Assembly: GCA_949358305.1 (NCBI GenBank)
Contig: OX442324.1
Span: 9,211,601 to 9,275,600 of the forward strand
DNA from: Strigamia acuminata
Taxonomy: Eukaryota; Arthropoda; Chilopoda; Geophilomorpha; Linotaeniidae
Direction of reading: 5' to 3'
Length of the DNA stretch: 64,000 bases
In this document: piece after piece, positions 9,523 through 43,476 of the stretch
Layout of the letters: every line of letters starts with the position of its first letter
How positions within the stretch are numbered: position 1 is the first letter of the stretch
The notes under the pieces: generated by a model
Databases searched by the model: none
Told to the model about the DNA's origin: nothing
The model's input: the letters and a program-made list of their open reading frames with translations, nothing else
Position numbers and translations under genes: made by a program

Positions 9523-9524
9523 AG

Positions 9525-12888: not shown

Positions 12889-12919
12889 ATCCGGGGGACG
12901 AAGGTTTATTCCATCCCCC
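12879..12919 (+). promoter_or_regulatory. Gypsy1 -1 ribosomal frameshift signal
   Basis: The heptamer A AAA AAC occupies 12879-12885, phased X XXY YYZ in the gag frame and followed immediately by the gag TAG (12886-12888). After a seven-base spacer, GGGGGA (12893-12898) can pair with TCCCCC (12914-12919). The pol frame is open from the heptamer to the first pol ATG at 12954. All three parts of a canonical -1 signal are present with normal spacing. Confidence 0.8.
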
Positions 12920-15900
12920 AGAAGTAGCTAATGCTACATCGGAGATTTTATTTATGGATGTAGACACAACTTGTCTTGAAATAGCCACTAGTCATAGTGG
13001 CGGAGTAGAGGAAAATCTGCAAGAAATGACGGAGCAATTAAAAAATCTGACATTGTTTCCTCACAAGTGCTACACGAAGAAATTCTGTAGACTTCGCCGA
13101 CTCAACAGAGTCATAGGCGGCAATAACTTGCACAACATTACTTTGGGTAATAATAAAGATGATCCTCGAATGAAGATCACAATTGGTGGGCTCACCTACA
13201 ACGCGCTCATGGATACAGGAGCATCTCAATGTTACATTGGGGAACAGCTTTTGTCTGAAACTCAGGCTCTGCCAGAATTTTTACAAGAAGCTCCCAGAAA
13301 TATGTTGGTTAACGCTGTAGGCGTAGCACACAAGCCTGTCGGACAAATAACTTTGTGCGTGCAATGGGCTGATGAATTTACACCAATGAATTTCATCGTT
13401 TTAGCAAAACGAGTGTGTGGCCTGATACTCGGTCACAATTTCATGCGCAGACAGAAAATTAGTCCGCATCCACATCTACAAGAGTTCTCTTGTGCAGATA
13501 AACCTAATTGGTCCGCCCCTTATGAGTCGGAAGAAGCCAATTTGGCCCTTGCCCCGTTGAATCGAATTACTTTCGAATATTTAGAAAGTCTAACGACTAC
13601 AGTTGACTCAACTGAGCTGACAGACACTCCCGTGTTACCATGGGATGAGAAATTAGTAGAGGAGAGCGACTGCACTCCAGAACAACGACTAGCACTTCGC
13701 GAAGTGGTTAACTCGATACCGAATGTATTTCGTGATCAAGTTGGGTGCACTAACGTGACCCAACATCGAATCAAGTTTAAAGAAGGGCATTCATTGCCCA
13801 AAATGCAGTATAGAATGTATAACCCGGCTAAGAGAGCCATTATGACCAAACTAGCTGCAGAACTTGAACAGGATGGACTTATTGAAAAGGCCAAAGGGCC
13901 ATTTATAAGTCATCCAGTCATCGTTGCGAAGCCTGACGGCTCGTATAGGATGTGTATTGACTACCGGTGGCTGAATGCCATCACCGAAGTCGAGGTAATA
14001 CAGATGCCGAGCATTGACCTTTTATTGCATAATACTGGTCCTGCTAAGTATTTTACGTCCATTGACCTTGTCAAAGGTTACTACCAAGTCGAGATGTGTA
14101 AAGAAGATCGTCCAAAGACGGCATTTTACACGCCAAATGGTCCATACCAGTTTGTGCGAATGCCGTTTGGCCTTTGCAATGCGCCTTGTACTTTCCAACG
14201 ACTGATGGAAGGCATTTTGGGCTCAGCTTTGCAAGACTACGCGTTAGTTTATTTGGATGACGTAATTGTGTATTCAGATAATTGGGATGATCATCTCAAA
14301 CACGTTCGAGATGTTTTGGAAAGGCTTAACCAAGCCAACATGACAATAAATAAAGCGAAATCTCGTTTTGGGCGTACAGAACTAAAATTCTTGGGCCACT
14401 GGATTAAACCCGAAGGTCTCTTCGGTGATCCCGATAAAATATCGGCGATCATGAAATTTCCCACCCCCACGTGTGCTAAAGACATTCAACGCTTTCACGG
14501 CATGACTAACTTCTTCAGGAAGTTTGTTCCAAATCACGGAACTATTGCCGCACCATACACCCGTATGATGAATGAGAAAACTCCATTTGAATGGGGAGAT
14601 GAGCAGACAGTAGCTTTTAATAAAATTAAAGAGCTACTTTGTGGTGACAATTGTCTACACAAACCAGATATGACTTTGCCATTTGTTGTCATGACTGACG
14701 CTTCACATGAAGGCTTAGGAGCTGTCCTTTGCCAAGACGTCGATATATTCGATGAAAAGAAGCAGAAAAACATTTCTGTACCCAGACCTGTAGCTTATGC
14801 AAGCAGAGTTTTACGTGGAGCGGAGAAGCGTTATACAACGCCGGAACTCGAATGTCTCGCAGTCGTGTGGGCTATTGATCGATTTAAACCATATCTCGAA
14901 TATGGTACATTCACTTTAGAATCAGATGCTGAAGCATTGAAATGGTTGATGCGAACGCCTGAACCATCTGGGAAATTTGGCCGATGGGCCTTAAGAATCC
15001 AATGTGGAAATTTTAAAATTGTTTTTCGAAAAGGTGCTGCTAATCAAGTTGCAGATGCACTTTCTAGAGCCCCACTAACAGAGGAAGACATTCCTCTTCG
15101 AGATCATGTGGAACCTGTCGAAATTAAACAATACTGGCCTGAGTGGGACGGAAATCCTTCTGTTTCATTAAATCGTGCCCCAGAGAAACGAGAATATTTG
15201 GCTAGTGTGCGTGTCCATTTTTCAGAAAATTCTAAAGAATGTTCTGAAGAAAAGGAGGGGGAGGAAGTACAAGAAACCTTGTACAGTGCGTTGACAGAAG
15301 TACTTAAAGAAGTCCCTCCTACACGGAGAGAAATAATAGATGCTCAGTTACTAGATACTGAATGCAAACGCATTCGAGAATATTTATTGAATGACAAGGT
15401 TGTTGGGATACCACAATCTGAAATAAAAGAATGGAAAAACAAAGTCAAAAACTATTGTTTAGACAAAAAAGAAGTTGATGGTGATCAAATGATCATCTAT
15501 TTTAACCCTTCGTTCGAAGAGGAATTAAACGATTCGGGAAATGGCTTTAAAGCCGTTGTACCCAGTGCACTCGTAAAACGAGTACTCTTCGCTTGTCATG
15601 GCCACCCCCTAAGCGGTCACGCTGGGATGAGTAAGACGCTTGAGAAAACGCGTTTAATATATTTCTGGCCTGGTATGAGTAGAAGTGTCAGGAACTACGT
15701 CAAAAGCTGCACGCACTGTGCTCAGTACAAGCCTATTCAACAGAAAAGGCACGCAGCTCCTTACACACCCCACAACATGACCAATCCTTGGGAATGTATT
15801 AACATGGACTTGATGGGCCCGAAACCCGCGGGAAGGTCCCAAAACCAGTATATTTTTGTCATTATTGATAATTGTACCAAGTTCGTTGAAATTAAGGCTT

Positions 15901-17087
15901 TGACCAAAGCCACGAGCGCTAACTGCGTTCAAGAATTAAGATCTGTTACAAACAGATGGGGACACCCCAAAAAGATTGTGAGCGATAACGGAAAACAATT
16001 TGTTTCCGATATTTACAATGAGTATTGCGAAATGTACAACATTCGCCCGTCTCATACGAGCACGTATCATGCCCAGGCGAACCCGACAGAGCGAGCCAAT
16101 AGAGATATAAAGACGATGCTGGCCCTGTACACAGACGTGCACACGCAATGGCCGCGTTATTTAGACGAATTTGCATTCGCAATGCGAAATAATGTTTCGG
16201 CAGCAACCGGCTCAAGCCCGATGCTGCTGAACACGGGACGAATCGTAACATTACCTTTCGACCCAAGGATTATTAAACATGCCAATCCATTTGACAAAGA
16301 AAATCCAGAAAAATATGTCAGAGTACTATTGGATATATTACGTAGATCGCATCAAGAGATGCATCGCAGAATTCAATTGAATTTTGAACGACATAGAAAA
16401 ATACACGAACAAAAGTTCGTAATTACGGAGTTCGAAGTTGGAGATTTAGTTTGGAAACAGACTCACATTCTCTCGTGCGCAGATAAAAATATCTCCGCTG
16501 GATTTGCCGAGAAGAGAGATGGACCGTGGGAAATTACTAAAGTACTTCCTGGCGGAGCGTATAAATTACGCAAATTAGCTGATGGTTCGATTGAAAAATC
16601 AGTAAATATTAAAGCGTTGTATCCCTATACTCCGTCGTACCCGATTGAGACTTGGAAAATAGGACAAAAGTCCGCCTCTTACTCGCCTCAAGAAAATCCT
16701 AAATGGATGGACGAAAGTAATCAACTTCCGGAGGCTGAAGAAATGGAATTAATTCCTGAAACTTCCTCAGAAATTCCAATGGAATTATCCGACTCAACTT
16801 CAGTGCAGATTGACAAATCTGCGCCCACAAAGTCTAAACGTAGACATAGACAACGCTTAACTGCTATGGAAAGGAAAGCGGCGTTAAAAAGAGGCGAAGT
16901 TCCAAAGAAACCGCCTCGAAAACCCCGCAAACCCCAACCGATAGTTCCTCGAACTAGCGCTCGTCCACGACGAGAACGAAAACCAAATCCTAAATATGCA
17001 GATGAAAATTTCGTGCGAAACATCACTGCAGTATTTAAAAAACTATACCAACAACGAGGAAGAGCCTCAAAGTTCTGTTGGAATTGA
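12889..17087 (+). CDS. pol: Gypsy1 pol: protease, reverse transcriptase, RNase H, integrase
   Basis: Pol is most likely read by -1 frameshift from gag; the first internal ATG is at 12954 (1,377 residues from there, numbering below). Domains: aspartic protease with MDTGAS (D87); reverse transcriptase with YLDD (433-436); RNase H with MTDASHEGLGAVL (D582) and a C-terminal SDAEALKWL segment; H2C2 zinc-binding integrase N-terminus (CHGHPLSGH ... CTHCAQYK); integrase core D952 (NMDLMGP), D1011 (VSDNGKQF), E1046 (NPTERANRD). The D-to-E spacing is 34, one short of the usual 35. The tail is basic and Pro/Arg-rich, without a clear chromodomain. The frame is uninterrupted, so this copy may be enzymatically competent. 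Confidence 0.92.
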
Positions 17088-18140
17088 TAAGTTTTATCCA
17101 AAACTCGAAGACTGTAATTATTTACATGTCTGACAGGTGTAGTGATTTATAATCTCAACACCGGGGGACAAGATATTACGATATTTATTGAAATTTATAT
17201 TAAAAATATGAATTTGTTGCGATGAATTAAGTATTCGATAGAATATTTTAATTTTTTTTGGTCGTATTTACATGTATTTTAACCAAAATACAGAGAATTA
17301 CTTTGAAAAGTGATAATCTCGCGTAACTACGAAGGTACGAGACTTACGAGGTGTGATTAAACCTCGAACCCGACAATTAATAGGGAATAAAATTCCCAGG
17401 GTTCATTGCACACAAACACTTCGTAAAACACACGGATACTAGTGACTTCGTCCCTTCGACCCGTCTTCATTTTTCAACTCGAGATTTCCGCTAATTCATT
17501 TAGCCGACTCCTAAACAAGGAAAACTAGCTTCAACCGTAAGTAGTTTTCAATAATATTCTTTGACCAAAGAATTGAAAATTGTTCGCAACAATTGGTAAA
17601 ATATCGGCGTCCCGATAAAAGTTAGAAATTCACGTGTCGTTATAAGCGTGAATCGGCATTAAATTACTCTGGAAGTTTAGCTATTCAGTCGAATAGTTGG
17701 GTTAAATATTAATAATGAATTATTAAGATTTAAGTACGTAGGCACTAATTATTTAAATCAAGTCGCGGTCGAGGCTTGCATAAATTATTTGGTGATGAAT
17801 TTTCGATGTAAGATATTTATTAGACTAAGTGTTAATTAATTAATACGGAAGTTATCTTTGATATTCAAGGATTGGATTGAATAGTTTATAGAAACTAAAA
17901 AGAATTTTTCTTTTGAAAAATCAACAAGTTGCGATTTTCGATGAAAATCTTTGCCGGCGAGTCCATTCTCGTGTCATAAACACAAGGGGAATGTGACTCA
18001 TTAGTGTCACGTGTTAAGGGTTATAAATAACTCGAGTTGTGTATTTTTCGTTGCGAACAACACGTTTAAATTCTTTGGACTCAAGGAATGACCATTTAGA
18101 GTGGAATTATTTTAATAAAATAATTTATTTGCGTCTGCAG
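17088..18140 (+). other. Gypsy1 pol-ORF3 spacer with candidate intron
   Basis: About 1 kb of AT-rich noncoding sequence. A CACCGGGGGAC motif at about 17159-17169 resembles the polypurine tract before the 3' LTR and the sequence after the gag stop. CCGTAAGTAG near 17537 looks like a splice donor, and the spacer ends in a pyrimidine-rich TTTGCGTCTGCAG directly before the ORF3 ATG, a good acceptor. Splicing is inference. Confidence 0.45.
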
Positions 18141-19658
18141 ATGGGAAGTGGTAAACACCGTTCGAAACGGAGTCATCGACGTCACCGTCACGAAAGCTCC
18201 AGCTCGTCCACCTCGTCTAGTGACGAGCAACGCCGTTCAGCGGAACGTGCTTACATGAGGGCCCAACCGATACCGACGGCGCCCGCCTCGATGTACGCCC
18301 TGACGCCACTGCAACTCGCAACGCTAAATTGGCTGAGCGTCCATCCGGACGGACTTCCGCTCGATTTGAATTCGATGATGCAGGCCCCGTCCACATCTGC
18401 GCAGCCAACCGTTTATGAGTCGGCGCAATTGGCCCCGTTGGCCCAGGTGGCATTTCCGCCCGCGAACGTTATCAACGTCCCGTTGGCCCCGCATTCACCA
18501 GAATTTCGGCCGCCAACTGCAAGCGTGGCGCCTACCGTCGCCAACACGTCGAATGCGACTGCACCGACTGTAGCGGGGCAAGCCACGTTTGATGTACGTC
18601 TTCCTGCCGGTGCTGAAACTTCGGCATCCGAATACGGATGGAACGAGCCGCCGCCGGGCGCTTTGCGTTTTTCAGAGCCTGTTTCTCGCAACCGCGAGTA
18701 CCGAGCAGCCAATAAGGCAAGAAAGAAGGACGAGAAGGCCCGCCTACGCAAAGAACAGTGCGAGCGTGACATGGCCGCAGGAATTCCGCACGATAACATC
18801 GTAACGGACCAGGCAACAGAGACAATCTGCCCGTTCTGCGTCGGCTGCGGGTGGTGCTGCGGTGCATCCGCAGGGTCTTCATTGATGCGTTGTCCAAATT
18901 GTCGTGGAAGGAAAACGCGACCGCGTTTGGAGCCGTGGAGGAAGGAGGTTCAGCCCCACGTAGTGAAAGGCATTAAGCCTAACGAGAAGCGATGTTGGGC
19001 TCACTGCCCAAAGTGTCGACTGTTTTTGAACAGCCGTGGCGAAGCGGTTTACATCGACCCACGTTTCCTCACCTGGACCCGCGCTGAAGCCAACGCCGGT
19101 GTAAGAGTCGAACTCCTTCGACAATCGCCACCGCCGTCCGAGGACTCTGAAGTTTCTACTGAAACTGTCCAGGCCACTGAAAGCGTCGGAAGCGAGGTGC
19201 AGGAAGAATTCGTTCGACCGAGAACGATGTCGCGTGGTCGAGGCTGTCTTACGCTCGACCGAGCGAAGGAAATTGCCAAGGTTCAACGAACCAATATCTT
19301 GGCACGAGGGCGAGCCCGTAAGCTTCGACAGGCTGTAGAAGCATCGTCTAAACCCGTGGAGAATCCTCCAGCGGCCGTAACCGACGTGTCCAGCGCCCCT
19401 CCAGCGTCTAAGTCCGAGACTTCGGACGACGCTCAGTTTGAGGACGCCGAAGAGCTGCTTTCCGTCGTTGATTTCGTGGCTGAGCTTCTCGACGACATGC
19501 CGTTTCCGCCTCCGAGTCCGGAAGAGATTGAAGCTCCGGAAGAAGCTGTGTTTTCCGCCGTCTCGACAGAGGCGACTGAAGAATCTGATTTTCTGACTTC
19601 TGCTGAAGTTGAGAAGAAGGAAGAGAAAGATTCGACTGACGTCGAAAAGAAGGAATGA
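18141..19658 (+). CDS. Gypsy1 third ORF: Cys-rich, acidic-tailed protein of unknown function
   Basis: The frame opens at a GTG (18039), but the ATG at 18141 is preferred because it follows a CTGCAG acceptor-like sequence; that gives 505 residues. The N-terminus is Lys/Arg/His/Ser-rich (SKRSHRRHRHESSSSS). A Pro/Ala-rich middle leads to a dense Cys cluster: C230-x2-C233-x2-C236-x2-CC(239-240), CPNC (251-254) and WAHCPKC (285-292), consistent with one or two zinc-binding modules. The C-terminus is strongly acidic with Lys/Glu repeats. I see no signal peptide, fusion peptide or membrane segment, so it is not an envelope protein. It lies in the position where errantivirus-like elements keep env. 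Function unknown; nucleic-acid binding is a reasonable guess. Confidence 0.75.
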   Translation: MGSGKHRSKRSHRRHRHESSSSSTSSSDEQRRSAERAYMRAQPIPTAPASMYALTPLQLATLNWLSVHPDGLPLDLNSMMQAPSTSAQPTVYESAQLAPLAQVAFPPANVINVPLAPHSPEFRPPTASVAPTVANTSNATAPTVAGQATFDVRLPAGAETSASEYGWNEPPPGALRFSEPVSRNREYRAANKARKKDEKARLRKEQCERDMAAGIPHDNIVTDQATETICPFCVGCGWCCGASAGSSLMRCPNCRGRKTRPRLEPWRKEVQPHVVKGIKPNEKRCWAHCPKCRLFLNSRGEAVYIDPRFLTWTRAEANAGVRVELLRQSPPPSEDSEVSTETVQATESVGSEVQEEFVRPRTMSRGRGCLTLDRAKEIAKVQRTNILARGRARKLRQAVEASSKPVENPPAAVTDVSSAPPASKSETSDDAQFEDAEELLSVVDFVAELLDDMPFPPPSPEEIEAPEEAVFSAVSTEATEESDFLTSAEVEKKEEKDSTDVEKKE

Positions 19659-20394
19659 AAAAGGACAAATTTAACATTCGTTATTTTTCCGAGTGGAGAT
19701 TTTTATGACTAAAAATGTTCCAAGTGTTTGTTGTGTTTTTCGCAATTACGAAATATTCTCATGAGTGTTGTGTTTGTTTGGTTTCAAGATCTTGAACTAA
19801 TTATTTAAATATTCATAAGAATATAGTTGATTTAAAATTGGATTCAATTTAATTTGTTTTGTTTTCGAATTCAATTTGGATGTTTATTTAAACTAATCAT
19901 ATTAATATATGTTTGTTTGATTTATTTGCAAATTTCATAATTATTTGTGGAAACTTTGTGTTTATTTTGCTTTGATCGAAGCGTTAAAGAATTTCAAGTT
20001 GAAATTCGTTAATTTTTTATGACATTCGTAATAAAGAATTAGTAGTTTAGATTTTCCGATAAATAAAATTTTGCATAAATTTATTTTATTTAATCATCTG
20101 GATAATTAATAAGCTGTGAAGAAGTTTATTTGATGGAGAAAATAAAATTTCTATCGAAATTAGTTTTCTCGAACATGTATCCATGTTCGGACGAGTTCAT
20201 TTCCGTCGCTTAGCAACCGGGAGTTTCGTTGTACAGGGAAGCCGATTAGTCTAATCGGGTGACGAAGTTTCTGAAAGAAATAACGTGATTAAGTTTAATA
20301 AAAATACTTACCCAGTGGATTAATTCGATAGAATTAGGTGAATATTTCTTATACATTAAGAATGACAATTGAAGAGTTAGTAAACTCTATGCTT
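19659..20394 (+). other. Gypsy1 3' untranslated spacer
   Basis: AT-rich noncoding sequence between the third ORF and the polypurine tract. It contains the leader-related TTAGCAACCGG ... GTACAGGGAAGCCG motif at 20207-20244. Nothing else is recognised. Confidence 0.5.
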
Positions 20395-20408
20395 GTCACC
20401 GGGGGATG
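20395..20408 (+). other. Gypsy1 polypurine tract
   Basis: CACCGGGGGATG lies directly before the 3' LTR. The same CCGGGGGA core occurs after the gag stop (12891) and after pol (17161). Confidence 0.6.
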
Positions 20409-22151
20409 TGTGATGATTACAAATCCGTATTTATCAATGTTCACAATAGATGGCGCTGTTTACCAAACGCGCGTAATTCAAACTCGATAAAACTAAAAAG
20501 TGTGATAAATAATTATTTAGACACGGTGAATAAAATATAACTATTTTATTCGACATAAACTAAGTATTAATTACTTGATGATGTTGATTCTGTTGAATCA
20601 ATATCCACATTACTTACCTGTCGAAGGTAACCAATCGGACCCTTCCGGACCCCAACTGGGCCCATCTGGACATAGTCATATATTAGGTCCGGACTAGTGA
20701 CCCACGAATCCGCCGATTCGTACGCTGATTGGCTGTCGCCAATCTAGTAGTTCTACAGAACTATATAAGCATCAGTTTCTCACCCACTAACCCCCCTGGC
20801 TTGATAACTGTAAATGTCTGTAATTGAATTGTTGTTATCGTTTGATTTCACTTTCTTATCGACACATCAGGCCACCTCAGCTCTCCACAATCGGTATTCA
20901 TTACTATTGTTATTGTTGTTGTAGGGCCTTTTCGGGAAGGCTAACTCCGGTAATAGACATGCATCCGCATGAAATGGCCCCGTAACGTTAGCCAGCTGTT
21001 CTACGGGACAGTAGGATTTCGTACGGTGGCTTAATATAACGGTCGTATACAGTACGACCTTGCTAAATGAAAGTAGGTCCCTCAGCTAACTGGCCTCAGT
21101 CCGCTGCAGGATGGCTGTTGTAAACGGCCCTCGCAGGTTCCCGTCTTTCTACGATTGGTCCTTCCGCTCGTTAAAAGTCGGTAAAGGCCTAATGCACAGG
21201 TGACACGCCGGGTTGGTAGCCCGTGAGTAATATCTTCAAGATGTTGCGATAAATAACTACCTGGATAATGGTAATCCAACGGCAGTGGCCAAGTAATATT
21301 TTACCCGGTGCTCGATCAGTGGATCCCGTCATCGTAAGGCATGCTGGCGGATGGAGGAGTCAAATCCTCCCGCGATGGTTCTCTCGACCGTCGTGACGGC
21401 CCCCGCCCCATTGTACCCTCCGGGTTAGTAAACCGTGAACAGTATATAAAATATATCGTGTTAAACAAATTACTCGGGCATTGGTAATCCTGTATTGGCA
21501 ATATCTTTTAAACCCGGTAAGTCCATAGAAATGTTTACCTGGTGGTTGGTACCACCGATAGCGAGTTAAAGCACACAATTAAATACTCGGCGCCTGATCA
21601 CGAGATCTTGTCGTCGTAAGGCATGCTGGCGGATGGAGTCTCAACAACTCCCGCGACGTTCTCTCAATTGTCGTGACGGTCCCCGCCCAATTAATATTTA
21701 TACAACAATTCATTTGTTGTATTCCACTAATTACTTTACTTTTATTCATTTGGAACATGGAATATTCTGCTGAATATTCCTACTTATGCGAAGGACTCTT
21801 CGCATTATTAGATACTCGAGCTGCGGACCAAATACGTCTCCGTAGCGATATTTGTGACGATGCCGCAAGTCAGCCGTATCCCTCTGGCTTCGCCCGGATC
21901 CTCAACCAGTTGATGCCGCCTGTTTACACGCGTCAAGAACCCATCTTTTGTTGTTAATATTTAGTCATAAATATGTTATGTCACACTAATACTGTAAGTT
22001 ATTTCTGCTCAGTCATGAATTCATATTTTTACACAGACTTCTGTAAGCTTATCTCGGTTAGGTTGTTGCTACTCCTAGCAACGTCTTGTTTAAACCGATT
22101 ATTTATCTATCTTAAATGGCTATTAAATCAGCCAAAAGTAGAATCGTCACA
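20409..22151 (+). repeat. Gypsy1 3' LTR
   Basis: Same length (1,743) as the 5' LTR, with about seven substitutions visible by eye and no indels. Followed by target duplication ACTC (22152-22155). Confidence 0.92.
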
Positions 22152-27314: not shown

Positions 27315-27915
27315 TGTTGGTCATATGATTCGGTACGGATCACAAATTATTATTTGAATCGATGTTATCAATGATTATTCAGTATTCATTATGTTATTTA
27401 CTTTTTATTGACTCTTTTCAATGTATTTGGATATGTTCCAAGTTGTATTCCGTACAATTGTACGTGATTGTGTTATATTTAAGTGCATTAAGCACCTTGC
27501 TGTTAGTTTTCCATCAAATGCATGTGGCATCATGCATCTTGTAATATTTTCCTTTTTATATTGCCCAATTCTAACACCAGATGGTGTTATCGTTTGTTAT
27601 TCTCACCCAAGATGGCCGCACACAGGTGCGAGGATGTTTTCCAACCATTTCAAATGAATAGGAACATTATTTGTAAGCATTATTTCGATTAAACATTATA
27701 TTTTATTGTTTTAACTCATTGCCAGTTAACCTAGCACGTTTATAAGTGCTTGTTCTATAATTTTTGCGCAGATAAGTGGCATTAGGCCACGCGCACTTGT
27801 TTTTCACGGCAAAACGTCCGTGTTACGTTCGTCTCGGGTCGAGACGGCGCCTTCCGTGCTAAATACACGCTTCCACCGGTGTTATTCGCACCGTTTTGCG
27901 CTCCACTCGCCTACA
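27315..27915 (+). repeat. Copia-E 5' LTR
   Basis: 601 bases, TGTTGGTCAT ... CGCCTACA. Distal hairpins: 27776-27790 (GTGGC/GCCAC), 27805-27822 (CACGG/CCGTG), 27830-27846 (CGTCTCG/CGAGACG) and 27877-27893 (CGGTG/CACCG). Several occupy the same place as in Copia-C with different stem bases. Confidence 0.92.
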
Positions 27916-28785: not shown

Positions 28786-29144
28786 ATGCAGAAAGGCTCG
28801 AATACTTCCGGTGGTCACGTACCGATACTCGCCATCGGCAACTACGAGATGTGGTCGCGATCGATGCGAATGCTCCTCAAAGCTGAGGGGCTTTGGCACC
28901 ACATCACCGAAGAAAATGAAAAAGACTTTCTTGCTACGGCCACCGAAAAGGAGAAACTCAAATTTCAAAGAAAAAAGGATAAAGCTTTGGGTCTGCTTTA
29001 CATTCATTTAAGTGAAGCGAAGAAATCAGCCCTCGATTCTGTCAAGACCCCGAAGGAAGGCTGGGACGCATTAGCCAAAATCTACGCGCCCAGTTCCCGC
29101 GCGCGCAAAGCCGCTCTTCGACGAGAATTCCTCAATCTTCGTAT
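28786..29144 (+). pseudogene. gag: Copia-E gag, N-terminal segment
   Basis: ATG at 28786 starts gag (MQKGSNTSGGHVPIL), closely related to Copia-C gag. It contains the gag N-terminal motif NYEMWSRSMRMLLKAEGLW and ends in IYAPSSRARKAALRREFLN, where Gypsy2 enters. Removing Gypsy2 and one GTAT joins it in frame to 38152. Confidence 0.88.
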
Positions 29145-29637
29145 TGTTACGCGGTAGAGCCGTACCGTGTATCGGCTGGCTCTGCTCGCTCTGTTTAGGC
29201 ATTTAATGCAATGAATTCTCACTAGACGGCGCTGCGCACCTAATTAGATGCACAGACCGTTCAACTTAGTTGATAGGGGGAATAGGAGTTTACTTAGTGA
29301 GCTGATTAAGCCAGAGAGCTAAGATCTCTTTTGATTCTCAAACTGTTACCTTCACCTACTACTGCCAGCCGGTTGACGGTCAGGCAGGACTAGGTTTCCT
29401 GAATTGAATTGAATAAACAACAGCATCATCCTTATTTGATTTGAATGAACCATTTATGTGTTTTAGGTTTAATAAATGAACAAATGTAATAAGAGCTGAT
29501 GACCGAACATTTACATTAGTAAATGTCCGACTTTGAACAATAAAGCCAACAGGCATTTTACATATAAAACCCTGTGTCATTCTTGATTGAATTCATGTCA
29601 CGTAGGACTAAATCAATCCCCATTTAGCCACGTAACA
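29145..29637 (+). repeat. Gypsy2 5' LTR
   Basis: 493 bases. CAATAAAG near 29535 may be a polyadenylation signal. The 66-codon minus-strand ORF inside it is duplicated in the 3' LTR and is not a gene. Confidence 0.93.
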
Positions 29638-29651: not shown

Positions 29652-30180
29652 GGTCTCGATTGTAGCCCGTTTAGAATTAAAATCCCATTAAAATTGGATT
29701 AAAATTACCAAAATAATTTAATAAAAATCTAGAAATAAAAACTTGAAAATTGCTGATTTTATAGCAATTATCTTGAATGACTCAGAGTTGGTAAAAACAA
29801 GTGAAGTCACAGCTTGAATATTTAATGTCATTGTGTGAAATAATTTGCATTTTGGAAATGAAAATAGAGTTTAATTGTTTATTAGGGATTAATTAATTGA
29901 TTTACAATTGTTATATTTAGAATAAATAAAATATATAGTGTATAAATACTAATTTTGATATTTATTTACAGGAAATTTTGTGAATTTATAGGAATTGAAA
30001 AATTGTTTTGAAATGTTATTGATGGATTATTTTCTTTGTAATTTTGAGTGTAATATTTATGTATTATATGCTAATAACACTTTAAGTTTTCAGGTAATGA
30101 ATTCGTGTTAGTGTATTCAGTGTTTAGAAAGAGATTAGTGCTAGTGAAGTGAATAAAAAAGTGCAATATAAGGCTTCAGT
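29652..30180 (+). other. Gypsy2 untranslated leader
   Basis: AT-rich noncoding sequence. A stop codon (TAA) lies three codons before the first codon of the gag frame. Nothing else is recognised. Confidence 0.55.
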
Positions 30181-31512
30181 GTGGATAAGCCAGTGAAATT
30201 GTCACAATTCAACTTGGATAACCTTCAGGATCTGCAGGATCTGCAGTTACCTGGGCCAAATTTGAAGAATATCACCACTAGGAAAAGTAAAAACGCTAAA
30301 TCCGAATCTGACACCGAACCTCAGAAGGAAGATAAAGAAGTCCGATCTCAACCTCAATCAATCCTACAGAAGTTGGATTTCGCTACTCCGTTAATAAAAT
30401 TAATTCCACAAAAAGGTTTAGAAGAAATAATAAAGACATTTACACCAGTAAAAACTAAACCAGTTCCAACCACAATTAAACCAAATTTTCCGAAAATGAC
30501 ATCACCACAGACTCCAACGGACGTATTGACCGACTTATTGAAGAGTTTGGTAGTGCAGAAGCGACCTGTTGTCACTTATGATACAGAAAAGGGCAACATC
30601 GACCAATGGCTTGTGGCATATGAAGCTACAATAGGAACAGATGATGAGAGAGTAAAACATCTAGCATTAGCCTTAAAGACTGATGGATTGGCATGGTTTG
30701 TGGAACAACTAAAGAAGAATCCGACATGGAAATGGACGGATTGGAAACTACAGATCGAGAAAAAATTTAGAAGAAGCCAAGAAAATGTTTACAACACTCT
30801 CCACTTCATGAAACACAAAGAGGGTACAGCAGATGCCTTCATGAAGAAAGTCTTGGCCGAATGTGCGTTTATTCTACCAGAGATGACTGAAACTCAGAAA
30901 ATAAATTATGTTTACCAAGGTTTGAAGCCTGCAATGCAGAAGATGATGATAACGGTATTTCCATCGACGTTAGAAGAAATGGAACAGAGACTTAAATTGT
31001 ATGAAAGTCACAAAACAGAAGAACCAGCGGATCTACTGCTCACAATGTTCAAAAAAGTAGTAGATGAAAAGGTGAACCCTACGACAACAGGTATACTGTC
31101 TGGAACAGGGGGATCCCCAGTAAGCTACGCCGAGTTATTAGCTGAAAATATCAAATTAAAACAGCAAAAGCTCGTGAGTGAGTCAGTAGAGCCACAACAA
31201 TCGGTTCCATTATTCATACAAGGCGAGTGGTATATTCCAGCATCGCAGTGCGGACAGAACTTTAGAGGTAGATACAACAGAGGTAGACAGCGGTCAAATA
31301 GTAGTCCGACAACAACGCGTCCATGTGGATGTTGGCATCGTTATGGTTGTGAACATAACACATCAGCGCCACAGGAGCAACAATCTCAAGAAAATAGAGG
31401 GAACCCAAACAACAGAAGGTGGTTTAAGAAGAAAAGGACACAAGGGGGCGGTAAAACGAACCCTAATCCTAAGCAGAACCCACAACAAGGTCAACAAGAA
31501 GAGGAAAACTAG
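30181..31512 (+). CDS. gag: Gypsy2 gag
   Basis: The 443-codon frame begins right after an in-frame TAA with a GTG codon (30181); the first in-frame ATG is over 100 codons inside (near 30496). An original ATG mutated to GTG, or a non-AUG start, are both possible. Residues about 120-290 form a gag/capsid-like domain (DQWLVAYEATIG, LAWFVEQLKKN, WKLQIEKKFRRS). The C-terminus is Arg/Gln/Asn-rich and carries CGCWHRYGCEH instead of a canonical CCHC knuckle. The stop (31510-31512) overlaps the GTG that opens the displayed pol frame. Confidence 0.82.
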   Translation: MDKPVKLSQFNLDNLQDLQDLQLPGPNLKNITTRKSKNAKSESDTEPQKEDKEVRSQPQSILQKLDFATPLIKLIPQKGLEEIIKTFTPVKTKPVPTTIKPNFPKMTSPQTPTDVLTDLLKSLVVQKRPVVTYDTEKGNIDQWLVAYEATIGTDDERVKHLALALKTDGLAWFVEQLKKNPTWKWTDWKLQIEKKFRRSQENVYNTLHFMKHKEGTADAFMKKVLAECAFILPEMTETQKINYVYQGLKPAMQKMMITVFPSTLEEMEQRLKLYESHKTEEPADLLLTMFKKVVDEKVNPTTTGILSGTGGSPVSYAELLAENIKLKQQKLVSESVEPQQSVPLFIQGEWYIPASQCGQNFRGRYNRGRQRSNSSPTTTRPCGCWHRYGCEHNTSAPQEQQSQENRGNPNNRRWFKKKRTQGGGKTNPNPKQNPQQGQQEEEN

Positions 31513-34500
31513 TGGGTCGGCCACAAGGAAGATGTCACCATCAACAAGGAAGATGTTGTCATCCAAAGAAGAAAAGAAAAAGTAGAAAAGAAAAGATAAT
31601 CGTAGTCGAAATGAACATTTCAGAATCTCTATTGGAAATTCCAGTAATAGTGAACAACATGGAAGTCAAGGCAGTTATGGACACTGGAGGAAAACGCAAT
31701 GTTATCAGCGAAGAGCTTGCTGAAGCTCTACAGTTGAATTACCCGCCCAGCCCAAACATTCGATTGCAAGGGGTAAGCGGAGAACTTGTGACTCCAATAG
31801 GAAAAACCAAGATGAACATTACAATTGGTGAATTAACATACAGGATCGAGGTCCTGATTGTTAAAGGATTTCATTATGAACTACTGCTAAGTGACCCATT
31901 CATGCTGTTCGCGAAGTGCGTGTTAGACTACGACAAACAAAAAATCTTTGTGGGCCGAACTAGTGGAAAGGAAGTGTCATTTCCAATGAATAAAACTTTT
32001 GTTGATCAGAATTATGTTGCGAGGGTAATGAAGAACATCACAATTCCACCAATGCATGAGTGCATTGTTCCCATCTATTTGAATAAAGCAATAACATTGG
32101 ACATGTTTGTGCAACCATTACATAATGTTACTGATAGATTTGCTGTGATAGGTTGTAAAACTTTAACAGATTTCAAGAACGGCAAAGGCATCATTCGAGT
32201 GGCTAACCCAACCAAGAAGACAGTCTTTCTGAAGGAGAAGTCAGCAATCGCAAAAGCTTATTATGTGGTTGATGTTGGGGTGTTTGATGAAAAACAGGTA
32301 CACTGTTTTGACTTTGACGCCTCAATAGCAAAAGACAAAATGAATAAAGACCAACAAGAGCAAATGCGACAACTTCTTCAAAAGAATCAAGACAGATTTG
32401 CTGTTTCTGATAAGGATTTGGGAAGAGTTCAAGTGTATAAGCATAAAATCGATACTGGAGACCATGACCCAATACATTTGCAACCGTATCGTCGTTCTAT
32501 GAAGGAAAAAGAAGTCGAAGCAGAGGAAACAAAGAAATTGCTTGATATGGGAGTGATAAGGGAATCAGAAAGTCCCTGGAGCGCGCCTGTATTGCTAATA
32601 AAGAAAAGAGATGGTAAGTGGAGATTTTGTGTCGACTGGAGACGTTTGAATGCGATAACAAAGAAAATGGTGTACCCATTGCCAAGAATAGATGACACTT
32701 TAGATCAGCTGGCAGGTGCACAGTTCTTCTCCATGATGGATCTTATTCAAGGATATTATCAAGTCGAAATAGATGAACAAGATCGCGAAAAAACAGCATT
32801 TACCACTTCAAGCGGACATTTTGAGTTTAACGTCCTAGGAATGGGATTATGCAATAGTCCAGCAGCTTTTCAAAAGTTAATGAATAAAGTCTTAGGCAAC
32901 CTCCTAGGCAAAGTTTGTATAGCGTACATTGACGACCTTATCATTTTCTCTAAAACATTCGATCAGCATTTGAAAGATTTAGACAACGTTTTCGACAAGC
33001 TTAGACAATCTAACTTAAAGGTGAAGTTGAGCAAGTGCACATTTGGAACGAACACCATCAAGTATTTAGGACATGTCGTGGACTCTGAGGGTATATCACC
33101 AGACCCTAGGAACTTGGAATCCGTCGCGAAGTTTCCAGTTCCTACTAACCTCAAACTTCTTCGAGGATTCATAGGGCTCTGTTCGTATTACAGGAAGTTC
33201 ATTCCAGGTTTTGCGGACATATCCAAGCCCTTAGTCAATTTGACGAAGAAGGACGAGAAATTCGATTGGGGCCCACCTCATGACAAGGCCTTCAAAACAT
33301 TGAGGACCGCCCTTATCACCGTGCCAGTGCTTGCGCACCCTAATTTTGAAGAACCCTTCATGGTATCGACAGACGCGAGCGCATATGGTCTTGGAGCAGT
33401 GTTGAAACAGAAGATAAACAAACAAGAACATGTGATAGCTTATGCCAGCAGACTTCTCAGCCAAGCAGAACAGAATTACACAGCCACAGAAAGGGAATGT
33501 CTGGCTATTCTGTTTGGAATTGAAAAGTACCGACCTTATCTGTATGGTAAGAAGTTCCAGATAATTACAGACCATTCGGCACTCCAATGGCTAAAATCAG
33601 TCAAAAACCCCAATGGCAGACTAGCTAGATGGAGCCTACAGCTAGTAGACTTTGATTTCGATGTGATCTACAAGAGCGGAAAAGCGCACAAAGATGCCGA
33701 CGCCTTGAGCAGAATTCCAGAAGATTTAAGCGAGGAAGAAAATGAAATAGTTCCCTCACTTTTACTCGAACAGCTCGACCTTCCTGCTGAGCAGCGTAAG
33801 GACAAGAAGCTACTGGAATTGATCACCGCAATGAATCAAGTAGAGCAGCTTCCGAAGAAGAGAAGACGTCCTCTAAAGCAGTTCGTTCTTCTCGACAATG
33901 TGTTGTTTAGGAAGAAAAATTCTTTGAATTCCCTAGACACGGAAGTAAATCTGTTATATGTTCCGCAGCATTTGAAAACTGCAGTTCTTGAAGAAATGCA
34001 TGACGGACTGACGGGTGCTCACTTGGGCCTAAACAAAACGTGGAAGAGAATGAGAACAAGATTCTTCTGGCCCCGGATATATAAAGACGTTAGAAATTAC
34101 GTACTTTCTTGTCCACATTGCGCGAGCTCGAAATCAATGACAACAGCGCCAAAAGGTTTGATGCAGCCGTGGTCTACGATATCTAAGCCTTTCGAGAGGA
34201 TTGGAATCGATACACTGGGAAGTTTTCCGACCTCCGACAAGGGCAACAAGTATGTTTTCGTAATGACAGATTATTTGTCGCGGACAGTGATTGCTAGAGC
34301 AGCTCCAGCATCAACAGCATTGGAAGCAGCTAGAACCTTACTTTATGAGTTAATGTTGAAGGAAGGCAGTCCGAGAGAAATCCTGAGCGATAGAGGCACA
34401 GAATACAGGAACAAAATGGTGGAAGAAGTATCAAATATGTTTAAAGCCCTACACAAAACCACTTCAGGGTACCATCCAAGGACCAATGGACTTACTGAGC

Positions 34501-34955
34501 GTTTTAATGCGACGTTTGCAAAAATGTTGCAGATTTATGTTGATAAGGACCAGAGGGACTGGGATGATTTTTTGCCATTTTTGCTTTTCTCGTATAATAC
34601 CGGTGTGCATGAAACGACAGGATATACACCTTATTATCTTTTGAAAGGATATGAAGTTGATTTGAACGTGGACGTAAACCTCAACTTACCTCAGAAAGAA
34701 TTTACCTTGCGAACCTCAAAATTCATCAGAGAAGCTAGGAAGATAGCAAATGAAAGGTTGGAGTGGCAAGGAGAAAAAAGCAGAAAAAGATTCGATCAAG
34801 GCCGAGTTCATGTGGAATTTGACCCAGGAGAATTAGTATATCTCAAAACACCCAATAGAAAAGTTGGGTTAAGTGAAAAACTCCTACCACAGTTCTCAGG
34901 CCCATACGAAATAGTAAGAAGAACCGCGCCAAATGACTACGAAATTAGAAGTTAA
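31473..34955 (+). CDS. pol: Gypsy2 pol: protease, reverse transcriptase, RNase H, integrase
   Basis: Pol lies in the -1 frame relative to gag; its frame is open from 31473 and overlaps the gag end. Residues are numbered from 31512. Domains: protease MDTGGKRN (D57); reverse transcriptase with YIDD (472-475); RNase H (VSTDASAYGLGAVL; TDHSALQWL); H2C2 integrase N-terminus (MHDGLTGAHLG ... CPHCASSK); integrase core D900 (IDTLGSF), D960 (LSDRGTEY), E996 (LTERFN), D-59-D-35-E. The last domain (GELVYLKTPNR ... FSGPYEIV) stops at a TAA (34953-34955), but the same frame stays open to 35456. The stop therefore looks like a nonsense mutation near the integrase end. Confidence 0.9.
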   Translation, partial: AEPTTRSTRRGKLVGRPQGRCHHQQGRCCHPKKKRKSRKEKIIVVEMNISESLLEIPVIVNNMEVKAVMDTGGKRNVISEELAEALQLNYPPSPNIRLQGVSGELVTPIGKTKMNITIGELTYRIEVLIVKGFHYELLLSDPFMLFAKCVLDYDKQKIFVGRTSGKEVSFPMNKTFVDQNYVARVMKNITIPPMHECIVPIYLNKAITLDMFVQPLHNVTDRFAVIGCKTLTDFKNGKGIIRVANPTKKTVFLKEKSAIAKAYYVVDVGVFDEKQVHCFDFDASIAKDKMNKDQQEQMRQLLQKNQDRFAVSDKDLGRVQVYKHKIDTGDHDPIHLQPYRRSMKEKEVEAEETKKLLDMGVIRESESPWSAPVLLIKKRDGKWRFCVDWRRLNAITKKMVYPLPRIDDTLDQLAGAQFFSMMDLIQGYYQVEIDEQDREKTAFTTSSGHFEFNVLGMGLCNSPAAFQKLMNKVLGNLLGKVCIAYIDDLIIFSKTFDQHLKDLDNVFDKLRQSNLKVKLSKCTFGTNTIKYLGHVVDSEGISPDPRNLESVAKFPVPTNLKLLRGFIGLCSYYRKFIPGFADISKPLVNLTKKDEKFDWGPPHDKAFKTLRTALITVPVLAHPNFEEPFMVSTDASAYGLGAVLKQKINKQEHVIAYASRLLSQAEQNYTATERECLAILFGIEKYRPYLYGKKFQIITDHSALQWLKSVKNPNGRLARWSLQLVDFDFDVIYKSGKAHKDADALSRIPEDLSEEENEIVPSLLLEQLDLPAEQRKDKKLLELITAMNQVEQLPKKRRRPLKQFVLLDNVLFRKKNSLNSLDTEVNLLYVPQHLKTAVLEEMHDGLTGAHLGLNKTWKRMRTRFFWPRIYKDVRNYVLSCPHCASSKSMTTAPKGLMQPWSTISKPFERIGIDTLGSFPTSDKGNKYVFVMTDYLSRTVIARAAPASTALEAARTLLYELMLKEGSPREILSDRGTEYRNKMVEEVSNMFKALHKTTSGYHPRTNGLTERFNATFAKMLQIYVDKDQRDWDDFLPFLLFSYNTGVHETTGYTPYYLLKGYEVDLNVDVNLNLPQKEFTLRTSKFIREARKIANERLEWQGEKSRKRFDQGRVHVEFDPGELVYLKTPNRKVGLSEKLLPQFSGPYEIVRRTAPNDYEIRS

Positions 34956-35456
34956 AATGGAAAGAAAACAGATATTGTTAACATTGAACGATTAAAACCG
35001 TATAAACCCAGAGAAGAAATTCCAGCGGAGATATTAGAAGAATTGACAGCTAAAAAAGTCACATTTGCTGATGAAACTGCAACACAGAGTGAAAAACAAC
35101 AAGAAATTGAAGAAAACACGTCAATTTCGCCAATTCCAATCGCTAAAGAACGATTCATTAGTGATGACGATCAAATTTCGTTAAAAACACTCTTTGAACC
35201 TGAAGAAAATACAACAAAAGTGTCAAATTTCCCAATTCCAAGCGAAAAAGAGCGATTAAAAGCGCTCTATGGACCGAAAGAAATTATGGAAAGATGGCAA
35301 AACGAAGACGAACGGAAAAACAAAGAAAATCAATTGCGAAAACCGCCGACAGGTGTCGCTGACGCAGTCGATGACGCGTCGCCGCCTGAAATCGAGAGTT
35401 TCCGGTCACGTCGCCTTCGCAAACAAGCTCGTCGTGACTATAGTGGATTGTGTTAA
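34956..35456 (+). pseudogene. Gypsy2 pol C-terminal extension beyond premature stop
   Basis: Directly after the stop the pol frame continues with VNIERLKPYKPR, the conserved close of gypsy integrase C-terminal domains (compare VxxxRLKPY), then a Lys/Glu-rich tail ending QARRDYSGLC at 35456. The tail holds two similar segments around SPIPIAKERFISDDDQISLKTLF and PIPSEKERLKALYGP-type sequence. It is part of the ancestral pol and is probably not translated in this copy unless the stop is read through. Confidence 0.75.
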
Positions 35457-35872
35457 GGTTTTCTGAGACGAACCGGGTTTACTGTGTGACTCAAAGAAAC
35501 CTAAAGCATTAATAATAGCAGCAGTTGATTTGTGTGTGATTCCGTAAGTGAAGAGAGTGAAATTTTGAACGAATTTGGCGAACAAATAGCTTAAAAACGA
35601 AACGAATCTATCGCGAATTTTGTGAAAAAATAATATCGCGAAATGGAAATTTAGGCTTAAATAATTGTGTTAAATCTTCAAAATGAAATTTTAGTGTGTG
35701 CATATATTATCAAGTGACTAATTAGTTGAAAAATTGTTAAATTTAGTGTAATTTAGTGCAACATGAAATGTTAAATGAAATAGTGAATGAAAATTGGAAA
35801 AATTTTGTGAAAATTTTGAATTAATGAATTAATTTATTTTATTTTCTTTTCAAATAAAATATTAGAATCCGA
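35457..35872 (+). other. Gypsy2 pol-ORF3 spacer with candidate splice acceptor
   Basis: AT-rich spacer. It ends with a pyrimidine-rich run (TTTATTTTATTTTCTTTTC) and ATTAG at 35861-35865, eight bases before the ORF3 ATG. This fits an acceptor for a spliced subgenomic RNA, as in the corresponding place in Gypsy1. Splicing is inference. Confidence 0.45.
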
Positions 35873-37246
35873 ATGGACGAAATGGCAAGCAAATTTGATC
35901 GGATGGATGTGCGTAGTGACAGTGACAGCGATGCGGATTCAGTTTGCTCGATGCAAGTGGGCGATCTTTTGGAACGTCAACTTAAGAAAGGCGATGACTT
36001 GGAAATTTATTTAGCAAATAAGCCGAGCACAAGTAAAACTTTGGACGAATTGGTTAACTGCCCACGCCCGTTTACAGAAGGAAAACAAAAGGCGGAGGAA
36101 GACAAAAAGAAATATGCAGGACCATTAACAAAGGGTGAAGAAGGCTTATTGCGTCGTCGTCGTAAGAATCGACAATTGAAACGAGATAAGAAAGCACAAA
36201 AGAAGAAAGTGTTTGACGAGCAATCGAAAAGAATCCGGGAAGAAGAAATGCGTCACACCGTTGATCGAAACAAACGCCGATTAAATGATTTGCGAATGGA
36301 GCACCGGAATATGGTCAACGCCATTAGAGCCAGGAAATTAAAAGGAGTGATGGGATTGCCCGACTATCAGTTGTGGAGAACAGGGGCGAATGCTTTGCTG
36401 ATCCAGGAGGCGAAGATAAGAAAAAACATTCTAAAAGCCATCGCCCTAGCGAGAAGAGAGTCCTTCCAGGACCCTAGTGTAGTATTTCCTACTCCTATAC
36501 GGGTATACCGTGTGGAGTTGGACGCTGCACGACAGGTCCAGGCTCTCGGACTTGCATTAGACTATAGTAATGCGCCAAAATATGACTTAGCATTCGACGC
36601 CGTAGGTTGTCCGCCGATTAAAGTCATGAACTATCAGATGGCAGCATTAGGCGATCTAACGCCGGGACGACAGAGCTGGACGTATGACAGCGTCGTTGAT
36701 CACTACCTCCAACTGTTAGAAGAGCGATATCCCATATTGGCACCAATTCAATCTGAGTGGGTCTTCAAAATGGTGGACCCAGCTAAACGAAAGGAAGCGA
36801 TCTATTGGCTAATGAAGAGACTTCCAAGTGCTCAAAAGAAGATTTGGGTGTTCCCAGTTCCTATTGAAGAGCATTGGCAGCTTTTCATAATGGATTGGCG
36901 GAAAAAGCCAACCCAATACGTGCTTTATGACCCAAGCGGACCAATAGAGCGCACATATCCAAAGTGGGAATCTTTAAGGTACTCGTTGATGGATGCAGGA
37001 GTAAAGTTTCCAAACAAATTCATACGTTGGGACCCGCCACGTATGCACCAATTGGATAATGACAGCTGTGGCCCAACCATACTCTACTTCACTAGAAGAT
37101 ATGTTGAAGACCGTGACTTAATGCAGTTTGGGGAGCCATGTGAGTTACGCTTACGATTTGTGTACGAGATTGCAAATCGTGAAATTCTCCCATTCGAATT
37201 GATCAAGGAAGAGGATAAGAAAGATCAAGCGGAAGGAGGAGAGTGA
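35873..37246 (+). CDS. Gypsy2 third ORF: Ulp1/C48-like cysteine protease
   Basis: 457 residues from ATG 35873 (a second ATG follows three codons later). Residues 1-60 are acidic and Ser/Asp-rich; about 75-160 are highly basic and probably helical. The C-terminal half carries a papain-like Ulp1 signature: H334 followed by W (EEHWQLFIMDW), D353 (VLYDPSG), Q393 and C399 in HQLDNDSCGPTILYF. The Gln-to-Cys distance of six and the H-x18-D spacing fit SUMO/adenain-type C48 peptidases. All four catalytic positions are present, so it should be active if folded. It could cut SUMO-like or ubiquitin-like conjugates, or the element's own polyprotein. I see no signal peptide or membrane segment. The position is that of env in other gypsy elements. 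Confidence 0.85.
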   Translation: MDEMASKFDRMDVRSDSDSDADSVCSMQVGDLLERQLKKGDDLEIYLANKPSTSKTLDELVNCPRPFTEGKQKAEEDKKKYAGPLTKGEEGLLRRRRKNRQLKRDKKAQKKKVFDEQSKRIREEEMRHTVDRNKRRLNDLRMEHRNMVNAIRARKLKGVMGLPDYQLWRTGANALLIQEAKIRKNILKAIALARRESFQDPSVVFPTPIRVYRVELDAARQVQALGLALDYSNAPKYDLAFDAVGCPPIKVMNYQMAALGDLTPGRQSWTYDSVVDHYLQLLEERYPILAPIQSEWVFKMVDPAKRKEAIYWLMKRLPSAQKKIWVFPVPIEEHWQLFIMDWRKKPTQYVLYDPSGPIERTYPKWESLRYSLMDAGVKFPNKFIRWDPPRMHQLDNDSCGPTILYFTRRYVEDRDLMQFGEPCELRLRFVYEIANREILPFELIKEEDKKDQAEGGE

Positions 37247-37654
37247 AGTGAACTTTAACTTCTTTAAGTGAATAAGTGTAAAATCAACACGAACTTTGAA
37301 CATTTTTTTTTGTGTGTTTTTTTTTTATTTTATAGAAAATTGAAAACTGAAAAAAAAAGTAATATAAAACAAAAAACCAAAAAGTGTTATTATTGATGAA
37401 AAGTGTTGATTTTATTTAATTTTAAACTTTGAAAATTGTTTCCAATGTAAAAATGTAATAAAAAGTGACTATGACATTTACAAACATTGAAAAGTGTATC
37501 ATACTATATTTTTGTAAAAATAAGGATGATGAAAAGAGATTCTCAAAAATTGTAAAATTGAGTTTATGATTTGAATTTTTTAATGTGAAAGGAGATGCGT
37601 TAGTTAGAACAATTCATTGTTTTTCGAGAGACCGAAAAAATTAAAGGGGGGGGC
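37247..37654 (+). other. Gypsy2 3' untranslated spacer and polypurine tract
   Basis: AT-rich noncoding sequence with long T and A runs. A polypurine tract TTAAAGGGGGGGG (about 37641-37653) lies directly before the 3' LTR. Confidence 0.7.
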
Positions 37655-38147
37655 TGTTACGCGGTAGAGCCGTACCGTGTATCGGCTGGCTCTGCTCGCT
37701 CTGTTTAGGCATTTAATGCAATGAATTCTCACTAGACGGCGCTGCACACCTAATTAGATGCACAGACCGTTCAACTTAGTTGATAGGGGGAATAGGAGTT
37801 TACTTAGTGAGCTGATTAAGCCAGAGAGCTAAGATCTCTTTTGATTCTCAAACTGTTACCTTCACCTACTACTGCCAGCCGGTTGACGGTCAGGCAGGAC
37901 TAGGTTTCCTGAATTGAATTGAATAAACAACAGCATCATCCTTATTTGATTTGAATGAACCATTTATGTGTTTTAGGTTTAATAAATGAACAAATGTAAT
38001 AAGAGCTGATGACCGAACATTTACATTAGTAAATGTCCGACTTTGAACAATAAAGCCAACAGGCATTTTACATATAAAACCCTGTGTCATTCTTGATTGA
38101 ATTCATGTCACGTAGGACTAAATCAATCCCCATTTAGCCACGTAACA
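37655..38147 (+). repeat. Gypsy2 3' LTR
   Basis: 493 bases, same length as the 5' LTR; the only difference I see is one G/A change (GCTGCGCACC versus GCTGCACACC). Followed by target duplication GTAT. Confidence 0.93.
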
Positions 38148-38151
38148 GTAT

Positions 38152-42875: not shown

Positions 42876-43476
42876 TGTTGGTCATATGATTCGGTACGGA
42901 TCACAAATTATTATTTGAATCGATGTTATCAATGATTATTCAGTATTCATTATGTTATTTACTTTTTATTGACTCTTTTCAATGTATTTGGATATGTTCC
43001 AAGTTGTATTCCGTACAATTGTACGTGATTGTGTTATATTTAAGTGCATTAAGCACCTTGCTGTTAGTTTTCCATCAAATGCATGTGGCATCATGCATCT
43101 TGTAATATTTTCCTTTTTATATTGCCCAATTCTAACACCAGATGGTGTTATCGTTTGTTATTCTCACCCAAGATGGCCGCACACAGGTGCGAGGATGTTT
43201 TCCAACCATTTCAAATGAATAGGAACATTATTTGTAAGCATTATTTCGATTAAACATTATATTTTATTGTTTTAACTCATTGCCAGTTAACCTAGCACGT
43301 TTATAAGTGCTTGTTCTATAATTTTTGCGCAGATAAGTGGCATTAGGCCACGCGCACTTGTTTTTCACGGCAAAACGTCCGTGTTACGTTCGTCTCGGGT
43401 CGAGACGGCGCCTTCCGTGCTAAATACACGCTTCCACCGGTGTTATTCGCACCGTTTTGCGCTCCACTCGCCTACA
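42876..43476 (+). repeat. Copia-E 3' LTR
   Basis: 601 bases, no difference from 27315-27915 that I can see. Followed by target duplication TCAAA (43477-43481). Confidence 0.93.

Follow-up and report, generated by a model that had tools for sequence, protein, structure and literature searches.

A predicted Ulp1/SENP-like (C48) protease domain in the env position of a Ty3/gypsy-type element of Strigamia acuminata

A Ty3/gypsy-type element nested within a copia element

The DNA analysed here, the window, is a stretch of 64,000 nucleotides from Strigamia acuminata (contig OX442324.1, positions 9,211,601 to 9,275,600 of the forward strand); coordinates are those of the window, and every feature to which a strand is assigned lies on its forward (+) strand. 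The segment 29145-38147 is a single Ty3/gypsy-type element, bounded by a 5′ LTR (29145..29637; 493 bp, TG...CA) and a 3′ LTR (37655..38147; 493 bp) and flanked by the target site duplication GTAT on the left (29141..29144) and on the right (38148..38151). TG...CA LTRs and short target duplications are features of Ty3/gypsy membership, and both are present. The two LTRs are 99.8% identical, with one mismatch over 493 bp; the insertion is young. Two bases past the 5′ LTR, at the place of the putative tRNA primer binding site, begins TGGTGGAGATGC, and a polypurine tract (37643..37653) with the sequence AAAGGGGGGGG is found immediately 5′ of the 3′ LTR. The whole element is nested within a copia element whose LTRs are at 27315-27915 and 42876-43476 and, judging from the frames, we read the insertion point as the gag region of that copia element.

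Within this element, gag (30496..31512, counted from the first ATG of its frame) belongs to a frame that is open from 30172, such that its first Met is residue 109 of the open frame; its match to Pfam Ty3_capsid (E=0.0012, 18.7 bits) is below the cut-off of 29.1. The open frames of gag and pol overlap at 31473-31512 in differing phases. The pol frame (31473..34955) encodes an aspartic protease with a DTG motif, reverse transcriptase (RT), RNase H and integrase, an order that is itself a feature of Ty3/gypsy membership, and ends in an in-frame TAA. Specifically, Pfam recognises RVT_1 (E=1e-36) and RT_RNaseH (1.2e-38), both far above cut-off, Integrase_H2C2 (1.8e-21), well above it, rve (1.1e-9; 38.9 bits versus a cut-off of 32.6) and Asp_protease_2 (1.9e-8; 35.3 bits versus 24.3). 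Relatives of pol are numerous (1061 at E≤1e-20 among 7991 scored), and those listed include proteins named Ty3-I, 412, 297 and K02A2.6-like. Among the named relatives near the top of the best 120 of these 1061 are Ty3/gypsy pol proteins of Cordylochernes (a pseudoscorpion) and Trichonephila (a spider), which are 34-51% identical to pol over the part covered.

The TAA (34953-34955) is within the integrase C-terminal region, and pol is therefore interrupted; this concerns the activity of the examined copy and not its Ty3/gypsy membership. Past the stop, the same frame continues (34956..35456) through what is left of the integrase C-terminal region into a tail, a continuation that matches no Pfam family, and in two pol relatives (P0003 and P0005) the stretch that matches it (GK.DIV.VER.K.Y) is unbroken. 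In the one copy examined, the TAA may be a copy defect, a sequencing error or a read-through stop.

The window as a whole is crowded with LTR retrotransposons. Several copia-type elements and fragments with mutual identities of ~65-83% are spread over 5622-63755, one of them being the element split by the Gypsy element; the copia-type LTR pairs, unlike these 65-83% identities elsewhere, are identical or nearly so. A second Gypsy element (7780-22151) has ~1.74-kb LTRs, starting at 7780 and 20409, that are 99.6% identical, an apparent target duplication ACTC, gag at 10546-12888 and pol at 12876-17087. After its pol there is also an extra frame (18027-19658; 543 amino acids) whose start is SR-rich and which includes a CxxC region rich in Cys; its only Pfam match is Anti-TRAP at E=0.067, and its type differs from that of the extra frame described below. 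Because the two Gypsy elements of the window carry different extra ORFs, there are hints that such ORFs are perhaps not rare in the elements of this host.

The reading frame downstream of pol

The extra frame of the nested Gypsy element, ORF3 (35873..37246; 457 amino acids plus TGA), encodes a C48/Ulp1-like protein; it starts with ATG, contains no internal stop and is in a different frame from pol. An earlier, sequence-only reading of this DNA had assigned the frame to the element, and this assignment holds: ORF3 is downstream of pol, between it and the polypurine tract and 3′ LTR, and is enclosed by the LTRs and the GTAT duplications. In related elements this place is sometimes occupied by a viral coat gene. 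It is separated from pol by an AT-rich spacer of 401 bases (35457..35857; 27% GC). A pyrimidine-rich stretch followed by AG (35833..35865) ends 7 bases before the ATG and is, by eye, a candidate splice acceptor. The 5′ leader contains, at 29960-30099, an acceptor-like TTTATTTACAG as well as TTTTCAG and then GTAATG, also picked out by eye; with these signals, the leader looks as if it held introns, or a donor from which an ORF3 message could be spliced.

The length of the frame exceeds what its composition produces in simulation, where the longest stop-free frame in 300 sequences of 8.5 kb, built with the dinucleotide make-up of ORF3, is 316 codons versus 462 at ORF3. Codon use favours the ORF3 frame as the best of six, and its in-frame value (0.095) can be set beside those of gag (0.102) and pol (0.064), but the test is weak here, with at least one frame of the non-coding 5′ leader, the spacer and the 3′ region reaching 0.09, 0.07 and 0.06, respectively.

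The N-terminal part of the protein is first acidic and then basic, with 15 acidic and 8 basic residues in positions 1-60 and 41 basic and 19 acidic residues in positions 61-200. A single-sequence AlphaFold model places a long, basic and perhaps coiled-coil helix at residues 87-157 (36131..36343); within it, the block at residues 91-140 (pLDDT 79-93, lower beyond) is the only confident part of the model. No membrane span was found in ORF3 (the largest 19-residue Kyte-Doolittle mean is 0.72), which has one N-glycosylation motif; we rejected an identity as an envelope protein because of the missing membrane span.

Evidence for a C48-type domain

We judge that the C-terminal half of ORF3 is very probably a C48-type domain. 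The Ulp1/SENP-like peptidase domain, supported by its phmmer match to SENP1, comprises residues 265-440 (36665..37192). The sequence-only reading had named His334 followed by Trp, Asp353, Gln393 and Cys399 in the context NDSCGP, with a Gln-Cys spacing of six, and each of these is found at its claimed position, the Cys lying in LDNDSCGPT. The predicted catalytic His334 (36872..36874), with Trp335 after it, aligns with the HW of SENP1 and ULP1, and the predicted catalytic Asp353 (36929..36931), the predicted oxyanion-hole Gln393 (37049..37051) and the predicted nucleophile Cys399 of the SCG motif (37067..37069) align with their counterparts in the same two enzymes. The order His, Asp, Gln, Cys with the Gln six residues before the Cys is a feature of C48 membership.

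Searches of the PDB sequences point in the same direction. With the whole of ORF3 as the phmmer query, the top match is SENP1 (E=5.5e-4), and the best 14 of the 17 matches at E≤10 are SENP1, 2, 3 and 5 and ULP1; these 14 represent five proteins (SENP1 seven times, SENP2 four times, and ULP1, SENP5 and SENP3 once each) and are not independent. When residues 251-448 were used instead, the same SENP/Ulp1 sequences made up the best 14 of the 16 matches at E≤10, and the E-value for SENP1 (2iyc) was 1.5e-4, with a best single-stretch i-Evalue of 2.3e-4. All seven matches at E≤0.001 are SENP1 (E=1.5e-4 to 9.4e-4), and those to SENP2, ULP1, SENP5 and SENP3 range from 0.0015 to 0.027. In the five alignments listed, all of them to SENP1, H334, D353, Q393 and C399 stand opposite the SENP1 catalytic residues. 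The phmmer match to ULP1 spans query residues 15-123 and ends before the Gln and Cys, and the register with ULP1 is taken from a three-way MAFFT alignment of ULP1, SENP1 and ORF3, in which W269, H334-W335, D353, Q393 and C399-G400 are invariant. W269 of ORF3 is at the place of the Trp of the WLND motif. In the SUMO proteases, the two Trp residues form the tunnel for the Gly-Gly end of SUMO.

Comparison with the yeast ULP1 (1euv) and human SENP1 (2iyc) sequences defines both what is shared and what is altered. Common to all are the order H-W, D, Q, C-G, the Gln-Cys spacing of six, the Trp of the WLND motif and a catalytic domain of ~180 residues. Despite these similarities, WLND is changed to WTYD and PQQxNxxDCG to MHQLDNDSCG in ORF3, which shares 20% identity with ULP1 across the alignment and which, unlike yeast ULP1 and human SENP1, is encoded by an LTR retrotransposon. 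At the level of sequence, the likeness of ORF3 to SUMO-removing enzymes is distant.

The class assignment made in the sequence-only reading, a Ulp1/C48-like protease, is borne out at sequence level by the PDB matches and by the residues in register, but Pfam scores remain below cut-off. The search with PF02902 that had been proposed as a check gave E=0.21 in one trimmed construct, below cut-off, and full-length ORF3 matched no Pfam family at E≤10. More precisely, among the four trimmed constructs that hold the domain, Peptidase_C48 (PF02902) was found in one (residues 302-448; 11.8 bits versus a curated cut-off of 20.7) and Peptidase_C57 in all four (E 0.11-0.24, below cut-off); these four matched no other Pfam family, and a fifth, N-terminal construct matched none at all. 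The C57 and C48 peptidase families are related. A profile built from ULP1, SENP1 and ORF3 picks up I7 (C57) chains at E 0.06-0.1. Searches of whole ORF3 against NCBIfam, PHROGs and PADLOC gave no usable match.

Controls separate the match from background. The ORF3 domain scores 24.7 bits against SENP1, 19.7 against ULP1 and 16.5 against a profile of both, versus 10.9, 8.9 and 8.1 bits, respectively, for the best of 20,000 shuffles. Of 343 frames of at least 60 amino acids in the window, ORF3 alone rises above the shuffles against ULP1 and SENP1 among the matches listed. A single shuffled ORF3 domain had no PDB match at E≤10. In contrast, the reversed domain had 11, all designed TIM barrels, with E-values down to 1.3e-7 and no single stretch passing; whole-sequence E-values in the range found for ORF3 thus leave some doubt by themselves and have to be read together with the register and the shuffles.

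Structure prediction adds little. Two AlphaFold models made without an alignment have mean pLDDT values of 42.6 and 36.8, too poor to assign a fold, and the domain model, in which no residue reaches pLDDT 70, has an order of helices and strands that we take to be like that of Ulp1 in outline. Foldseek with this poor domain model gave no match at E≤0.001 among 281, and the names SENP, Ulp1 and adenain are absent from the best 50 of these.

The search for closer relatives covered ~5.8 billion proteins, in which none of the 7997 candidates scored for the whole ORF reached E≤0.01 and none of the 94 candidates for residues 255-445 reached E≤10. Among the best 120 of the 1061 pol relatives, all of them proteins, an ORF3-like stretch is likewise absent (phmmer; best E=2.1). 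Scans of viral and genome contigs for relatives of ORF3, pol and Ulp1, which may omit records near the window's own genome, gave pattern matches only, none of them confirmed by tblastn; seven viral-contig stretches (L001-L007) that match the PQQxNxxDCG DNA pattern were rejected, as they have no C48-like frame.

Possible roles of ORF3 and its precedents

On balance, and narrowly, we think it probable that ORF3 is an element-encoded, deSUMOylase-like accessory protease; from its sequence we infer expression, activity, specificity for SUMO, a substrate and a benefit to the element. ORF3 would then be a two-part accessory protein, with an acidic-then-basic helical N-terminal region and a C-terminal Ulp1/SENP (C48) peptidase, most likely translated from a spliced message or some other message of its own. 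Through its N-terminal part it would bind to the element's own particle, to RNA or to host chromatin, and the peptidase would free host silencing factors or the element's proteins of SUMO, or of a ubiquitin-like tag akin to it, and thereby ease expression or integration of the element. Since SUMO proteases are the closest kin of ORF3 by sequence, the first guess is that it removes SUMO or a similar tag. In addition, because the element keeps its DTG aspartic protease, a second protease is likelier to act beyond Gag-Pol. Gag, Pol and ORF3 have no clear excess of SUMO sites or SUMO-interacting motifs compared to shuffles, and in several cases they have fewer than expected.

Alternatively, an enzyme of the same kind might serve the element's own particle: like adenain or poxvirus I7, a C48-like protease would trim structural proteins such as Gag, for example between capsid and basic tail, and SUMO would not be its target; we consider this unlikely. 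It is consistent with the weak match to Pfam C57, the family of the vaccinia I7 peptidase, in all four domain-holding constructs, and with a single LSGTGG in Gag just past the capsid-like region (31096-31113; residue 309 of the open frame and 201 of the Met-started protein), which is of the adenain type and a candidate cleavage site. No such motif is present in pol, the pol tail or ORF3. However, a motif of this type occurs in 14% of shuffled Gags, and the stricter form, found in 0.8% of shuffles, was picked after the site had been seen. The best sequence matches are to SENP/Ulp1. The DTG aspartic protease that pol encodes also makes a part in Gag maturation, which the sequence-only reading had suggested, less likely.

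ORF3 could instead be a captured passenger or pseudo-enzyme, that is, a host or transposon Ulp1-like gene carried by this copy or subfamily and not selected for any function in the element. The examined element is a single copy: the window has no second one, the proteins and contigs searched yielded no relative of ORF3, and pol has an in-frame stop, all of which would fit such a passenger. Against this, a frame of 462 codons is still open and retains the four catalytic residues, and among the six frames that of ORF3 has the best codon use, with a value near those of gag and pol, although this test is weak. With one LTR mismatch, the insertion is too recent for decay to be informative. We regard an unselected passenger as quite unlikely.

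That ORF3 is an unrecognised envelope-type or unrelated protein whose C48 likeness arose by chance seems improbable. The position downstream of pol would suit an envelope-type protein, absolute scores are low, the PDB support consists of five related proteins only, the structure models are poor and the reversed-sequence control has a low summed E-value; yet the shuffle and window-ORF controls, the matches to two related Pfam families and the catalytic residues in register all argue against chance, as does the missing membrane span against the envelope form. The weakest alternative, that ORF3 is part of another transposon (a MULE, Ginger, Crypton or similar) lodged between pol and the 3′ LTR, draws on the C48 domains known in such DNA transposons (PMC2836005, PMC13317346, PMC3212892, in their available portions), but it is very improbable given neither clean terminal repeats nor a transposase frame: there is no other frame of at least 100 amino acids between 35457 and 37654, the flanking spacers (27% and 24% GC) resemble the element's 5′ leader (24%), and the 6 of 23 inverted-repeat pairs that flank ORF3 with one arm per side are AT-rich, 13-23 nt long and 73-92% complementary and thus do not form clean terminal inverted repeats.

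Precedents exist for each half of the arrangement. In the available portions of the cited papers, Ginger1, the MULE/KIU (Kaonashi) elements and Cryptons F and S are selfish elements with a C48 domain, as here (PMC2836005, PMC13317346, PMC3212892). In KIU MULEs and CryptonS the C48 domain is a separate protein, like ORF3 (PMC13317346, PMC3212892); in Ginger1, unlike in ORF3, it is fused to the integrase-like transposase (PMC2836005). These are DNA elements, whereas the host element of ORF3 has LTRs and reverse transcriptase. Polinton/Maverick elements, according to the parts of PMC10175614 and PMC5718144 at hand, combine a Ulp1-like cysteine protease with a retrovirus-type integrase in a mobile element, but have a protein-primed DNA polymerase and capsid genes where the Gypsy element has LTRs, RT and Gag. 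A further likeness is offered by the LTR retrotransposons Vesta and Juno of bdelloid rotifers, whose env position is occupied by an enzyme gene; their ORF3 products are a DEDDy exonuclease and a GDSL esterase, enzyme classes other than C48, and the term 'Ulp1' does not occur in the accessible text of that paper (PMC5408684). No C48 domain in a Ty3/gypsy element was met among the papers listed in the literature searches, to which Repbase and most subscription journals do not belong, or found by term look-up in the available text of PMC6338049, PMC6431247 and PMC5718144. C48 domains in transposons and enzymatic third ORFs in LTR elements are therefore known; the predicted C48 domain in a Ty3/gypsy element is, with this reservation, apparently new.

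If ORF3 is a deSUMOylase-like accessory protease, it may belong to a Ty3/gypsy lineage that uses an env-position SUMO protease to counter SUMO-dependent silencing in its animal host, a form of counter-defence; we put this forward tentatively and hold it to be doubtful. Such silencing has a precedent in the Piwi-piRNA pathway of flies, where, as the available part of PMC13195609 describes, the silencing activity of Panx requires Panx SUMOylation. In plants, Vandal VANC/KIU elements with a Ulp1 domain induce hypomethylation of related elements, the function of the domain being unknown, and the source of this statement, a 2026 review, likewise gives the function of C48 in MULEs as unknown (PMC13317346, in the portions available). 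In yeast, Ty1 RNA is raised in Nup84-complex and Ulp1 mutants, and the authors suggest, in the text at hand, that Ty1 is activated when unidentified factors are less SUMOylated (PMC8585004). This is also a counterpoint: Ty1 rises on loss of Ulp1 tethering or activity and not on gain of a SUMO protease (PMC8585004). With a C48 ORF in a young LTR element, a pattern known from several unrelated DNA transposons would reach retrotransposons as well; if this ORF is real and conserved, it would link them to direct interference with a modification on which piRNA-guided silencing in flies relies.
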